In this document: positions 4,791 through 19,110 of the stretch, piece after piece
Layout of the letters: the number at the start of each line of letters is the position of its first letter
How positions within the stretch are numbered: the stretch's first letter is position 1
Source: an uncultured Lactobacillus sp.
Lineage (GTDB): Bacteria > Bacillota > Bacilli > Lactobacillales > Lactobacillaceae
DNA: 23,176 bases
NCBI GenBank assembly: GCA_946409675.1
Contig: CAMJXI010000004.1
Coordinates: 1 to 23,176 of the forward strand
Direction of reading: 5' to 3'
Notes under the pieces: generated by a model
The model's database searches: none
What the model was told of the DNA's origin: nothing
Seen by the model: the letters and a program-made list of their open reading frames with translations, nothing else
Program-made: the position numbers and the translations under genes

Positions 4791-6146
4791 CTAGGCCTCT
4801 GAAGCACCTGAAGTTTCGTCTACTTCTGCGACAAAGATGTCAGCATCTGAGGCTTTTGTTGTTGCATCAGCCATTGGTGCTTCAGTCTCTTCTGAAGCAC
4901 CAGTACTTGCATCAGTAGTTGGTGCTGTTGGTGCTTCCTCTTCTTCAGAAGCTCCTGTACTTGCATCTGGATCTGGTTCGACTGGTGCACTTGATGAAGC
5001 ACCGGTCGTTGCAGCAACCTTGGCATTTGGATCATCAACGAGTTTCTTACCAGTTTGTTTCAAGTAAGAAGCCACGATTGGCCATAAATCAACCACCCAT
5101 TCGTTAATCCCACGGTAAACGCCGTCTTCATCATGCATTGCTTTGTAGTAGTGCATCAAGTGTTTAGTTGGGCCATTTCCAGGAACTGGTAGAACGAACA
5201 AGTCTGTTTTGCCATTACGGAGATTGTTGATGACAGTTGCAACACCCTTGAGTGCGCGTTCTGGATGCACGTAATACAATGGGTCCCCAACTTGGTCAGG
5301 AGTACGAGAAGCAAGCATGTCCTTAGGATCATGTCCTTGGTCACCGTAGTAGATAAATTGGTTGTTTTCGTCAGCGAAGGTTAATTCAACCGGCATCGTC
5401 TTCAAGAAACGGTCGATTTGGTTAACGGTCAAAAGTCCGCGGTCCAACTTCACGTAAGCATCACCAGAAACGGCGTTGGTCTTTTCTGCGGCCTTTTCGA
5501 GCCATTGTGGGTCACGCATATCAACATCTTTAACGGTTGTGTCGCAGTTGCCGGTAGCATACAAATCTTCAGACGCTCCTGGGTTATCTGCGCGGCCATT
5601 CAAATGACCGATTACGCCCACGAATTCCACGAATTTTTGTAAAGTTGAGCCTAAGAAACTAGCTGTCCGGTCGTCTTTCAACATGCCTGATTCATCGAAA
5701 GCTTCTTTCGCATTTGCAAGTAAGAATTCGTTACCTGGCAACGTAATTGCGTTTACGCCTGGTGATTCCAAAATTTGGCGTAAATTAAGTTGTGCACGAC
5801 TTGAACCTTGGATAAAGTAGCTCGCACCAACAATCATCACTGGTTTGTCAGTAAATGGGTGCAAGTTGTATGAAAGCCATTCGATGACGCTCTTCAAGGC
5901 TGCGGGAATGGTGTGATTGTGTTCTGGAGTAGCAATGATGACACCGTCAGCTGCCAAAATTTTATGGTTCAAGTATTGGATGGCTGGGCTATCTGATTGG
6001 TCATTACTTTGGTTGAACATTGGCACGTCACTGATGTCCAAAATTTCGATATCAGCCATGTTGCGATATTGCGTGCTCATAAAACGGAGTAACATTCTGT
6101 TATAAGATTGATCGGCAATTGAGCCTACGATTCCTACTAATTTCAT
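4791..6146 (-). CDS. NAD(P)H-dependent FMN reductase fused to a PAS-like domain, with repeated DxxTGAS tail
   Basis: A 451-aa multidomain flavoprotein, cytosolic because it has no signal peptide. Residues 1-175 are a flavodoxin-like NAD(P)H:FMN reductase domain ([47 protein letters not shown]), closely similar to the upstream gene. Residues 235-365 resemble the PAS-like domain found in such fusions ([15 protein letters not shown]...[23 protein letters not shown]...). Residues 370-451 are a low-complexity acidic tail with an 18-aa repeat and five copies of a (D)xx(S/T)GAS-like motif at 378-384, 394-400, 412-418, 427-433 and 443-449. These resemble sites where ApbE-type flavin transferases attach FMN. 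AGGAG lies before the ATG and the gene starts 18 bp after its paralogue. The redox partner is unknown. Confidence 0.85.
4794..5015 (-). repeat. In-frame repeats encoding the (D)xx(S/T)GAS tail
   Basis: The segment codes for residues 378-451 of the PAS-FMN reductase. Two DNA units about 54 bp apart, near 4888-4914 and 4942-4968, are close to identical and give the 18-residue period ([12 protein letters not shown]). The reading frame is kept, so the repeats are protein-level, not a mobile sequence. Confidence 0.8.
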
Positions 6147-6164: not shown

Positions 6165-6776
6165 CTACTTCTTATCTTGCCAAGAAACGTTGGTCGCATT
6201 AACTTTGTCTTGGCTAAGAGTGCCATTTAATTGTTTCGTGATTTCAACGAATTTTTCAAAATCTTGGAATAAGCCGTCTAATAGTTTGGTATTATCTGCA
6301 TCAATCAAGTTGCCCGTATCATCAAAGGCTGTGAGTGAATGACTCAACAAGAAGTCTGAGCTTGGCATTACGCGTGCTTTTAATTCTGGTGAATCAAGGA
6401 CTTGGCGTAGGTGTCCTTGGGCACGACTTGAACCGAGTGCACCGTATGAAGCACCAACAATCATCACTGGTTTATCAACAAAAGGATGAACTGAGTATGA
6501 GAGCCATGACAACGCATTTAAGAGGGCTGCGGTCACGGAATGATCGTATTCTGGTGTGGCGATAATTACCCCAGCAGCAGCATCGATTTTCTTAGCCATC
6601 TCGAGTGCTTGCTCTGGTGTCTTCCGGTCCGCATTCTTTGCATAAACTGGTAAATCTTTGATTTCCATCAATTCAATCTCTGCTACTGGAGCAAAGTGTT
6701 GTTTCATATATTGTAATAATTGACGGTTGGTTGACTTATCAGCATTGCTTCCTACAATTGCGATGTACTTGTTCAT
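6165..6776 (-). CDS. NAD(P)H-dependent FMN reductase
   Basis: A 203-aa single-domain flavoprotein of the NADPH-dependent FMN reductase family (flavodoxin fold), which reduces free or bound flavin, or quinone/azo-type acceptors, with NAD(P)H. Supporting motifs are AIVGSNADKSTNRQLL (phosphate-binding loop near the N terminus), [25 protein letters not shown], and [27 protein letters not shown] chose the ATG at 6774-6776 (MNKYIAIVGS) because AGGAG lies 8 nt upstream and the fold starts directly after it; the frame runs open for 23 more codons upstream without a ribosome site. It is first in an operon with its larger paralogue, suggesting a tandem duplication followed by gain of the PAS domain and tail. 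Confidence 0.9.
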   Translation of the reverse strand: MNKYIAIVGSNADKSTNRQLLQYMKQHFAPVAEIELMEIKDLPVYAKNADRKTPEQALEMAKKIDAAAGVIIATPEYDHSVTAALLNALSWLSYSVHPFVDKPVMIVGASYGALGSSRAQGHLRQVLDSPELKARVMPSSDFLLSHSLTAFDDTGNLIDADNTKLLDGLFQDFEKFVEITKQLNGTLSQDKVNATNVSWQDKK

Positions 6777-6884
6777 TGTCGTTCTCCTTTTATTAGTTAG
6801 TTTAATATCCGCCATTATTGTAAGGGTTTTCACAACCGAAATCAATGCTTTTCGTGAACTTTTTTACATAAATTATTATACACT

Positions 6885-16139: not shown

Positions 16140-17594
16140 ATGGATGATTTAAAACCAAAGAAGAATTTAACGTGGCCCGTTATTGCTCTGATGAGCTTCG
16201 TCACAGTTATTGGCTTCGATGATATTATTTACAACTTTAAGGCTCAAGGCCTGGGAGTTATCACATCATGGATCTTGATGTTACTACTCTTCGTTGTTCC
16301 TTATGAAATGATGGTTGGTCAACTTGGCTCAGTCTTCAGTTCTGAAGGTGGCGGACTTGCCAGCTGGATGCGGGGAACAAGTGGTGATCGTTGGGGTTAC
16401 ATCACCGCTTGGACATACTGGGCAGCAAGTTTACCATACATGGTTGATATTGCGAACACGATGGTCGTTTCCTTTGGTTGGGTAATCAACGGGAATGGTT
16501 CAATGCAAGATAAGATGCCAAACTCTGTCTTTGCACTTTTGACGGTCGCTATCTTTATCGTCTTCGTCTTATTCCAACACAAACTAAGTAATCCAATGGA
16601 GCTACTGAGTACTATCGGGGGTGGGGCCATGTTCGTCATGACCATCCTCTTCGTTATCTTGGCCTTTGTTTTCTGGGGTCAAGGTCACCCAGCGGCAACA
16701 CAACCATTCACACCAGGCGCATTTATTCCTAAGTTTGACTTACACTACCTGACTACTTTAGGTATGTTGGTCTTTGCCATGAACGGTGCTGAATACGTTG
16801 CACCATACGTCTCAGAGATGAAAAATGGGAAACGGGATTTTCCTAAGGCTATGTGGATGCTCGCTATTATGACTGGTTTCTTAACCATCGCCGGTTCATT
16901 TGCATTAGGAATCTTCTTCAATGCTCATAACCTACCAAACGACATGAAGATGAACGGTTCATACTACGCCTTCGCCTACCTTGATTCATATCTTGGTACC
17001 GGACGCTTGATCATGTACACTTACGCAATCACGCAAGCAATCTATATGATGGCCCAACTGGCCGTCTTCTTGGATGGTGGTGCCCGTCTCTTTATCGCCG
17101 ATACTTCAAAGAAATACTTACCAAAGGTTTTGACCAAAATCGACAAAAGAACTGGTTTGCCAATCAACGGTTACTGGCTAACTGTTGGTATCTGTGCGGT
17201 TATCCTTGGTGCTTCAGCAACTTTGCCAAGTATCAACGATATTTTCAACCAGCTTTTGAACTTGAACGGAATCGTTTCACCTTATGTAACAGGATTTGTG
17301 TTCTGGGCCTTCATTAAGATTCGCAAGAATGAAAAGAAGTTCCCTTCAGAATATGTTTACATCAAGAACAGTCACATCGCCTTAACTGTTGGTTGGTGGT
17401 GCTTGCTGTTAACCTTAGTCGCTGCAACATTTGGTATCCTTCCACTTGATGCAAAATTCGGAACAGACTTGTGGTATCATACATTGTTCTTGAACATCGC
17501 AGAACCACTCTTCTTGGTTGCACTTGGTGGACTTTTGCCAATGTGGGCTAAATGGGAACAGAAACGCGAAAACAATAACTCTAGTCTCAATTAA
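16140..17594 (+). CDS. APC-superfamily amino-acid permease
   Basis: A 484-aa integral membrane transporter with about 12 hydrophobic segments, the length and layout of APC-family amino-acid permeases or antiporters. The first helix region ALMSFVTVIGFDDIIYNFKAQG and the loop GQLGSVFSSEGGGLASWM (about 61-78) match the glutamate/GABA-antiporter-like subgroup (GadC/YjeM type), where the second motif is conserved. TM6 region TTLGMLVFAMNGAEYVAPYVSEMKNGKRDFPKA also fits. The substrate cannot be told. GGGGG lies 9 nt before the ATG. It is monocistronic unless transcription continues past the hairpin at 17744-17770 into hflX. Confidence 0.85.
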   Translation: MDDLKPKKNLTWPVIALMSFVTVIGFDDIIYNFKAQGLGVITSWILMLLLFVVPYEMMVGQLGSVFSSEGGGLASWMRGTSGDRWGYITAWTYWAASLPYMVDIANTMVVSFGWVINGNGSMQDKMPNSVFALLTVAIFIVFVLFQHKLSNPMELLSTIGGGAMFVMTILFVILAFVFWGQGHPAATQPFTPGAFIPKFDLHYLTTLGMLVFAMNGAEYVAPYVSEMKNGKRDFPKAMWMLAIMTGFLTIAGSFALGIFFNAHNLPNDMKMNGSYYAFAYLDSYLGTGRLIMYTYAITQAIYMMAQLAVFLDGGARLFIADTSKKYLPKVLTKIDKRTGLPINGYWLTVGICAVILGASATLPSINDIFNQLLNLNGIVSPYVTGFVFWAFIKIRKNEKKFPSEYVYIKNSHIALTVGWWCLLLTLVAATFGILPLDAKFGTDLWYHTLFLNIAEPLFLVALGGLLPMWAKWEQKRENNNSSLN

Positions 17595-17658
17595 CAAAAT
17601 AGGTCTATTCAAAAAAATGTGTTAAACTTAACGTACTGATGAAAAGGATAATCTAATC

Positions 17659-17697
17659 ATGCGTCTTCAAGTAATTTTTGTAACTAAGAATAACTAA
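17659..17697 (+). CDS. Candidate 12-aa leader peptide of hflX
   Basis: ATG...TAA encodes MRLQVIFVTKNN. AAGGA lies 10 nt before the ATG. Residues 6-8 are Ile-Phe-Val, the same residues at the same positions as in the erythromycin-stalling leader peptide ErmCL (MGIFSIFVI), and residues 2-3 are Arg-Leu, as in RLR-type leaders that precede macrolide and HflX-type resistance genes. The peptide is followed by a terminator and hflX. Ribosome arrest here could expose hflX to transcription. A chance 12-codon frame is possible; its position, ribosome site and sequence argue against that. Confidence 0.5.
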   Translation: MRLQVIFVTKNN

Positions 17698-17743
17698 CAA
17701 TTGAAAACACATTTTGGATTGATTAAGTACGTTTTTTAACGTT

Positions 17744-17770
17744 AAAAAGCCGGATCATTCCGGCTTTTTT
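17744..17770 (+). terminator. Terminator in the hflX leader
   Basis: A5-GCCGGA (17744-17754), loop TCAT, TCCGGC-T6 (17759-17770). It is a strong intrinsic terminator. It ends the permease transcript and, if hflX is read from upstream, acts as the attenuator. Confidence 0.92.
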
Positions 17771-17820
17771 GATACCAACATTTAACTTAATTCATTCATT
17801 TTTTGAGAAAGGATGATATT

Positions 17821-19110
17821 TTGATAGAAAACAATCTACCTAAAAACCAAGTCGTAATCGGCGGTGTAAACCGTGGCGACGATAAATTTGATTATTACAT
17901 GCAAGAACTAAAACAATTGGCTAGTGCCAATAATATGGAGGTTGTGGGCGAAGTCTCACAAAACCTCGAAAAATTGATTGCTGCCACCTATTTTGGAAGT
18001 GGTAAAGTCAGTGAAATTAAAGTTTTGGCTGAAGAACAAAACGCCACCCATTTGGTGGTCAACGATGAACTAACACCAACCCAAATTCGGAACTTGGAAA
18101 AAGAGACGAAGTTGGTCGTAACTGACCGGACTGAATTGATCTTGGAAATTTTCTCGAATCGTGCAAAGACCAAGCAGGCTAAATTACAGGTTGCTTTGGC
18201 TCGTTTACAATATGAAATGCCAAGACTGCACCAGACAGAAAACTCGTTGGACCAACAACGTGGGGCTGGTAAGAGTGGCTTAGCCAACCGTGGTGCTGGT
18301 GAAACGAAACTGGAATTAAATCGCCGGACGTTGGGTAACCAAATTACTTTGATCAAGGAAGAACTCAAGAATATTGATAAGAGTGAATCGACGCGGAGAA
18401 AAGAAAGAAACAAGAGTCAACTACCTCAAGTAGCGTTGGTTGGTTATACAAACGCGGGTAAATCAACAACAATGAACGGTCTGATTGATTTATTCAGTCA
18501 GGTCGAAGATCCACAGAAAAAAGCAGAGAAACAGGTTTTTGAAAAAGACATGCTCTTTGCTACTTTGGATACAAGTGTCAGAAGAATTGATTTGAAGAAC
18601 AACTTCTCGTTCCTCTTGAGTGATACTGTTGGATTTATCAGCAAGCTACCTCATAAATTGATTGAATCGTTTAAGGCAACGCTTCAGGAAGCTAAGGATG
18701 CCGACCTTTTGATTCATGTGGTCGACTTCTCTGACCCTAATTACCAAGATATGATTGATACCACAAATGAAGTGCTAAAAGAAATTGGCATCTATGAAAC
18801 ACCAACGTTGATGGCGTTCAATAAAGCTGACCAAACTAGTTTTGGCTATCCTGGTTTAAACGGCGAGGACTTCTACTACTCAGCCCGTGATCCTAAATCA
18901 ATCGAGATGTTGAGTGGCTTGATTACGGACAGAATCTTCTCGGAATATCGTGAAGTGAATTTAAAACTTCCACTTGATCAAGGAAAATTGTTGTCATATT
19001 TGCACGAAAAAGCTGAGATTATTAGTCAAGATTATCAAACTGAAGGAATCTTTATGACGGTCAAATTGAATCCAGAGGATCTGATCAAGGTTGAAAAATT
19101 TATTGTTTAA
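17821..19110 (+). CDS. hflX: GTPase HflX, ribosome-splitting factor
   Basis: HflX is a GTPase that binds the ribosome's 50S/70S particles and splits stalled ribosomes; one form in Firmicutes protects against lincosamides and macrolides. The product is 429 aa from the TTG at 17821, chosen because AAAGGA lies 7 nt upstream and the family N terminus follows at once; an earlier TTG (17803) lacks a site. The N-terminal HflX domain includes TYFGSGKVSEI (57-67) and the conserved NRGAGETKLELNRR motif (157-170). The G domain has G1 GYTNAGKST (208-216), G2 in FATLDTSVR, G3 DTVGF and G4 NKAD. The gene is preceded by a leader with a uORF and terminator. It could be either the housekeeping or the resistance form. 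Confidence 0.95.
   Translation: MIENNLPKNQVVIGGVNRGDDKFDYYMQELKQLASANNMEVVGEVSQNLEKLIAATYFGSGKVSEIKVLAEEQNATHLVVNDELTPTQIRNLEKETKLVVTDRTELILEIFSNRAKTKQAKLQVALARLQYEMPRLHQTENSLDQQRGAGKSGLANRGAGETKLELNRRTLGNQITLIKEELKNIDKSESTRRKERNKSQLPQVALVGYTNAGKSTTMNGLIDLFSQVEDPQKKAEKQVFEKDMLFATLDTSVRRIDLKNNFSFLLSDTVGFISKLPHKLIESFKATLQEAKDADLLIHVVDFSDPNYQDMIDTTNEVLKEIGIYETPTLMAFNKADQTSFGYPGLNGEDFYYSARDPKSIEMLSGLITDRIFSEYREVNLKLPLDQGKLLSYLHEKAEIISQDYQTEGIFMTVKLNPEDLIKVEKFIV

Follow-up and report, generated by a model that had tools for sequence, protein, structure and literature searches.

The hflX gene and its leader

The stretch of DNA analysed here (the window, a whole contig of 23,176 nucleotides from a member of the Lactobacillaceae) contains an hflX gene that is preceded by a permease gene and, directly upstream, by a leader with a short upstream open reading frame (uORF) and an intrinsic terminator (Table 1). 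The initial annotation had described a uORF with an AAGGA Shine-Dalgarno sequence (SD), followed by a terminator and then hflX, and all of these elements were located in this order.

Table 1. Features of the hflX leader and its flanking genes in the window.
Feature	Position	Strand	Basis
Permease	16140-17594		nearest model YjeM-type transporter, below cut-off
Extended -10 promoter TGTTAAACT, weak -35	17620-17628	+	comparison with other hflX leaders; starts 39 nt 5' of the uORF
Shine-Dalgarno AAGGA of the uORF	17644-17648	+	sequence; block AAGGAnAATCnAATCATGCGT common to window and congener
P1 5' arm AATCTAATC	17650-17658	+	folds; pairing partner GGATTGATT (17716-17724)
uORF MRLQVIFVTKNN, 12 codons	17659-17697	+	start codon and codon 2 kept in congener
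CAATT, 5' arm of a predicted small hairpin with GATTG (17717-17721)	17698-17702	+	constrained folds
Shared arm GGATTGATT	17716-17724	+	partner 17650-17658 (P1) or terminator 17753-17761 (antiterminator); GGATTGATnAAGT also in congener
Intrinsic terminator hairpin AAAAAGCCGGATCATTCCGGCTTTTT	17744-17769	+	own hairpin search; near-identical copy in congener
T run of the terminator	17765-17770	+	
hflX (HflXr clade), TTG start, SD near 17808-17813	17821-19110	+	profiles and tree

The hflX product matched TIGR03156 (NCBIfam) with 405.7 bits (cut-off 216.75) and the Pfam families GTP-bdg_N, GTP-bdg_M and MMR_HSR1. In an HflX tree of 36 rows (37 were wanted, and L013 was dropped when the script found no open reading frame), a single split with a support of 100/100 separated 27 proteins, the window protein included, from nine others. 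The window's side held Lactobacillaceae proteins, the first of two Listeria marthii copies and Bacillales proteins, and the other side the second L. marthii copy together with proteins of other families of the order. The window protein was 51% identical to L. marthii copy 1 and 38% identical to copy 2. PMC6310831 describes both HflX types, HflXr and lmo1296, in L. monocytogenes, and we infer from it that copy 1 of L. marthii is HflXr and copy 2 of the lmo1296 type. Judged from its sequence, the window product appears to belong to the HflXr subfamily, which is characterised by increased resistance to lincomycin and erythromycin.

In 37 Lactobacillaceae genomes, one strong HflX match each was found, and G002 alone had a further match (E 1e-4). 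No second strong match in these 37 genomes represented the other HflX type, which occurs in Listeria and in further families of the order, and the Lactobacillaceae proteins placed in the tree were all of the HflXr kind. By our own count, 23 of 397 genomes had two or three HflX matches, with second loci taken from among the matches listed. The copy number of hflX, a check suggested in the initial annotation, was one in the window's genome, which is incomplete (1.18 Mb, 66% complete).

Elsewhere on the contig, an open reading frame at 4791-6146 resembles, by eye, a flavin reductase with C-terminal STGASEE-like repeats, and a shorter relative (6165-6845, also by eye) adjoins it. The contig end (23130-23176) reads agatcggaagagcgtcgtgtagggaaagagtgtagatctcggtggtc, which we take to be an Illumina adapter, so that the last minus-strand open reading frames there are partly artefact.

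Promoter and terminator

The promoter of the leader was described as uncertain at first, and a consensus scan of 17300-17900 did not improve on this, as it returned one promoter-like site on the plus strand (17591-17618) and one on the minus strand, compared with a mean of 1.9 in shuffles. Comparison with other leaders nevertheless allowed an extended -10 element to be placed. The motif TGNTANNNT was present upstream of 29 of 30 chosen hflX uORFs (494 of 6000 letter shuffles), and in 27 of those 29 it lay 39-45 nt before the uORF start. The sample comprised 29 of the 38 uORF leaders of the survey described below and L189; L007, L016, L025, L056, L084, L092, L105, L110 and L170 were outside it. 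From this position, the leader RNA would be expected to start near 17635. No plus-strand promoter-like site was listed by the scan between the terminator and hflX, in agreement with the annotation, which had accepted none there. Three sets of complementary segments had also been taken to allow alternative folds. The complementarity AAAATGTGTT/AACACATTTT (17614-17623 with 17705-17714) falls inside the promoter and is therefore probably not part of the RNA; the segment GGATTGATT can pair in two ways (see below).

The same scan listed no terminators in 17300-17900, the hairpin at 17744-17769 included, and so lends this hairpin no independent support. We think that the scan misses it because A5:T5 pairing in the stem consumes the T run. 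None of 200 shuffles folded as well as the whole leader (17632-17773; z -3.82), an advantage that comes largely from the terminator. The portion upstream of it (17635-17738) folded no better than shuffles (z -0.37, 63/200 as good). Rfam gave no match above the gathering threshold in the window, and the best weak match in the leader was rimP (23.8 vs 47 bits, E 0.063).

Conservation of the leader

Within the genus, the comparison covered two species, the window genome (G000) and a congener (G001) with an HflX 70% identical to that of the window. In the congener, a uORF MRILNFVIVPNNDNEN occupies the matching place before hflX. Blocks common to both leaders were the promoter TGTGnTAnAC, AAGGAnAATCnAATCATGCGT around the SD and start codon, GGATTGATnAAGT, GGATTGAT, AAAGCCGGATCAnTCCGGCTTTTTT and the terminator. 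The pattern AATCNAATCATGCGT occurred once in each genome, both times at the hflX leader; its reversed control occurred once in the congener and not in the window genome.

The uORF itself was kept in part. Start codon, codon 2 and the SD-start block are retained in the congener, and the Ile-Phe-Val at residues 6-8, to which the initial annotation had drawn attention, is not. The uORF starts with MRLQ in the window and MRIL in the congener, and residues 6-9 read IFVT and FVIV, respectively. IFV as a conserved core of the genus was rejected on these grounds. An Arg-Leu-Arg or R-x-K motif was absent from both uORFs. The part of the congener RNA before the terminator also folded no better than shuffles (z +0.65), and the small CAATT/GATTG hairpin was absent from its fold.

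hflX leaders in other genera

We surveyed 158 distinct hflX leaders, among which near relatives of the query are over-represented. In 35 of them, a uORF with an SD had [RK]x[RK] within its first nine residues; at least four of these uORFs look spurious (L016, L170, L105, L110). Three leaders, those of the window, the congener and L007, had a uORF starting with MR and no [RK]x[RK]; the L007 leader has no terminator. The remaining leaders had another uORF before a terminator (5), a terminator only (23) or none of these (92). Examples of the first group were MRLRQVALSLQ and MRLRTSSLLSIH in Lapidilactobacillus, MRLKTVATQTIG and MRLKKFATI in Lacticaseibacillus, and MRYIRLRFPKNLCN and MIWIRLRTKQIFATN in Listeria. 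In L038 (= L156), L042 and L157, from Lacticaseibacillus zeae, L. chiayiensis and a relative, an MRLR uORF lies about 95-106 nt before hflX and the script found no terminator; perhaps attenuation acts on translation instead of transcription there. Lactobacillus adjoins the window's genus in the HflX tree. Its loci L031-L034 and L113-L136 contained no basic or MR uORF with an SD, and several have a terminator before hflX.

The chance occurrence of this layout was assessed in hflX neighbourhoods, and not genome-wide, over a total of 1,499,016 bases (both strands, with overlap between loci). Of 30 SD-preceded MR[LI] reading frames of 6-20 residues, 16 had a terminator within 130 nt, and 15 of these were also followed by an open reading frame. 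All 15 precede hflX (13 after removal of double counts for the window and L004/L045). An MR[LI] uORF with SD and terminator before hflX is thus not a product of chance. In three of four Lapidilactobacillus-type loci, the upstream reading frame was an ABC-type gene (named by eye) on the opposite strand, so that the terminator there goes with hflX. Among the titles and abstract openings listed in searches of open-licence PMC papers for hflX leaders, none dealt with such leaders in lactobacilli; one paper, PMC11264731, contains the words hflX, leader and Lactobacillus.

These data also bear on the suspicion, raised in the initial annotation, that the hairpin may simply end the permease gene, the uORF then being a chance reading frame. 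We rejected the hairpin as a permease terminator only: the stretch from the permease stop (17594) to the uORF shows no further hairpin, so that this one probably also ends the permease RNA, and the congener has the permease too (a relative lies farther upstream in 5 of 22 loci compared), but the uORF-terminator layout is kept where another or an opposite-strand gene adjoins upstream and all 15 pattern matches precede hflX, which makes this reading highly improbable.

Pairing of the leader RNA and ribosome footprints

In the structure that we call P1, the SD, start and first codons of the uORF are paired with a segment 3' of the uORF. Compared with shuffles, the P1 duplex reached p<=0.05 in 9 of 19 leaders and p<=0.07 in 13 (window 0.07, congener 0.61). 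The segment 3' of the uORF (CGATTGATG in Lapidilactobacillus, GGATTGATT in the window) can also pair with the terminator loop and 3' arm. The initial annotation had found no clear competitor for the terminator arm; probably it is GGATTGATT (17716-17724), which pairs with GATCATTCC (17753-17761). The duplex energy is weak evidence for this, as the antiterminator duplex reached p<=0.05 in only one of the 19 leaders, that of the window (p 0.042). A MAFFT alignment puts GGATTGATT out of register with the Lapidilactobacillus CGATTGATG, and no pair counts were therefore taken from it.

The effect of a stalled ribosome was modelled by blocking its footprint on the RNA and comparing the ensembles with and without the terminator. 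This test describes equilibrium and not transcription kinetics, and the state without the terminator was set by penalties. Outside the folding tests were L069 (no hairpin found by the script) and, among the leaders with an Arg-x-Arg/Lys uORF (RxR/K leaders), L189, L190, L038, L042, L157, L006, L083, those of Listeria and others; L148, which is cut at its 5' end, was used in the duplex test and left out of the footprint tests. Shuffle controls cover 13 of the 16 RxR/K leaders (all but L039, L040 and L010).

In each of the 16 RxR/K leaders tested, a ribosome at codon 3 made loss of the terminator cheaper by 1.4-9.3 kcal/mol. In 11 of 13 leaders no more than 2 of 60 shuffles were as good, and in the other two 6 of 60; at codon 8, at most 3 of 60 shuffles were as good in 3 of 13. 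The preference for the terminator fell to zero or below at codons 1-4 in 5 of the 16. From codon 6 onwards, the most effective codon reached -2.5 or lower in 8 of the 16, and the window is thus not alone in responding late.

The window RNA behaved differently. At codon 3 (RNA from ATG-26) the change was -0.7, matched by 121 of 200 shuffles, compared with -2.9 kcal/mol at codon 9 (1/200) and -4.4 at codon 12 (0/200); as codons were scanned, the counts for late codons are subject to multiple testing, and only codon 9 had been named in advance. The effect at codon 9 was found with the leading edge at +15, +16 and +17 (2, 1 and 2 of 80 shuffles), where codons 11 and 12 also hold, and was absent when the footprint ended at +12 or +14 (RNA from ATG-24). 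According to constrained folds, a ribosome with codon 9 in the P site would touch the first bases of CAATT (17698-17702). Even so, the terminator in the window was favoured at every codon tried, still by about 8 kcal/mol at codon 9 (10.7 minus 2.9).

Codons 3 and 9 had no effect in the congener (codon 9, 41/100 shuffles as good). Its response was confined to the last two codons, with -2.7 at codon 16 (4/100); with leading edges at +15, +16 and +17, shuffles as good numbered 4, 4 and 2 of 50 for codon 15 and 1, 1 and 21 of 50 for codon 16. The genus as represented by these two species appears to have lost the second basic residue together with, in the folding model, the codon-3 response.

Interpretation of the leader

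The leader is, in our view, likely to act as an hflXr-type transcription attenuator that is set, in the window, for a late stall (codons 9 and 11-12). An hflXr-type attenuator as such is well supported, because the uORF start, promoter and terminator are conserved, the protein falls into the HflXr clade and related leaders occur in other genera; the earlier proposal of attenuation by a short uORF is in line with this. The RNA would be translated at the uORF, and by default the terminator would halt RNA polymerase short of hflX. Stalling of a ribosome on the uORF, presumably by a ribosome-targeting drug, would leave GGATTGATT free to pair with the terminator loop and 3' arm, and RNA polymerase could then read into hflX, the product of which would split jammed ribosomes. 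The genus uORF would act without the second basic residue of the Arg-x-Arg/Lys stall motif, on an RNA without a codon-3 response, and the window RNA would be tuned to stalls at codon 9 and codons 11-12.

More tentatively, the genus may have swapped its sensor, an early-stalling Arg-x-Arg peptide being replaced by a late-stalling one (in the window one that stalls at codon 9, in register with ErmCL) and the trigger set by the RNA fold shifting in step from codon 3 to codon 9 or later. If so, the peptide motif would have evolved in concert with the RNA wiring, one gene family would hold both known macrolide stalling modes, and a nascent-peptide drug sensor could exchange its stall motif while keeping its output. 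The Arg-x-Arg/Lys leaders and the window's genus would then be a natural pair for asking which peptide or codon a leader RNA serves.

The leader could instead be an early-stall sensor, in which the ribosome is arrested at MR[LI] by erythromycin or by drugs acting right after initiation (lincosamides, pleuromutilins, streptogramin A) and IFV is incidental. MR[LI] and the SD-start block are indeed what the two species share, and such a stall is proposed in PMC10201436 for the clostridial cplR uORF with its MR[I/M] consensus. According to PMC8298421, arrest of ErmDL by erythromycin is independent of the second Arg, which telithromycin arrest needs; an early erythromycin stall on MRLQ is thus possible, but it would not switch the RNA in the folding model. 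With a longer 5' end (ATG-28 or ATG-32), codons 1-4 of the window gave up to -1.4 or -1.3, equal to the weakest RxR/K leader, but RNA from ATG-24 gave no relief of the terminator at these codons (window 0.0 to +0.7, congener +0.5 to +1.3), and the value for codon 3 at ATG-26 was commonplace among shuffles. We regard this reading as unlikely.

Rather unlikely, too, is a leader in decay, in which an ancestral Arg-x-Arg attenuator is nearing loss and its terminator now does no more than reduce hflX expression. In the neighbouring Lactobacillus, the loci examined lack an SD-preceded uORF that is basic or starts with MR, and folding support is weaker in the window's genus than in other genera. Against this, two species with HflX proteins 70% identical have the promoter, SD-start block, GGATTGAT and terminator in common.

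A ribosome at the uORF end, in termination or failed recycling, could signal for a splitting factor in place of a drug-specific nascent-chain stall. The last codon is effective in both species (codon 12 in the window, codon 16 in the congener) and hardly so in the 16 RxR/K leaders (-1.7 to +2.3, without shuffles). However, each normal round of translation passes the uORF end, the codon 16 effect of the congener is gone at +17 where that of codon 15 persists, and the last-but-one codon gave -4.5 in the RxR/K leader L095. We think this improbable.

Comparison with known systems

The ErmCL peptide is MGIFSIFVI, with IFVI at residues 6-9. It stalls with codon 9 in the P site, as stated in PMC13148051. 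Like ErmCL, the leader peptide of ermC, the window uORF has Ile-Phe-Val at residues 6-8, and a ribosome at codon 9 is effective in the folding test of its RNA; unlike ErmCL, it has Thr instead of Ile at residue 9, would control a transcription terminator and has no IFV in the congener. The ErmCL-like core put forward in the initial annotation is thus backed by the codon 9 response, but not by residue 9 or by the congener, and the response depends on the footprint. An ErmCL-type sensor in the window is possible on the folding model; the attenuator itself is likely.

The clostridial cplR leader (PMC10201436) is similar in having a uORF that starts with MR[I/M], compared with MR[LI] here, before a ribosome-protecting gene; the window uORF is longer and the gene family different.

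The uORFC-6-1 motif, found predominantly in Bacillales, is likewise a uORF with RNA structure before hflX. It has a conserved Arg-Leu-Arg, as described in PMC8632094, where the window has MRLQ. 'Lactobacill' does not occur in the main text of that paper, and the Lactobacillaceae leaders described here would join the hflX uORF class.

The closest counterpart is the Listeria hflXr/rli80 attenuator (lmo0762), demonstrated experimentally in PMC6310831, in which mutants define the antiterminator; in the window the antiterminator is predicted by folding. The Listeria uORF holds RLR, whereas that of the window does not and its RNA is unresponsive to a ribosome at codon 3. Both have an HflXr-clade gene, a short uORF and a terminator before the gene, and the extended -10 motif is common to the window and the four Listeria leaders compared. 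The initial annotation had suggested a new leader type. Of the 38 hflX leaders whose uORF is basic or begins with MR, 35 have the [RK]x[RK] motif, which the window and its congener lack. The window leader is related to the Listeria hflXr attenuator and does not constitute a new system.
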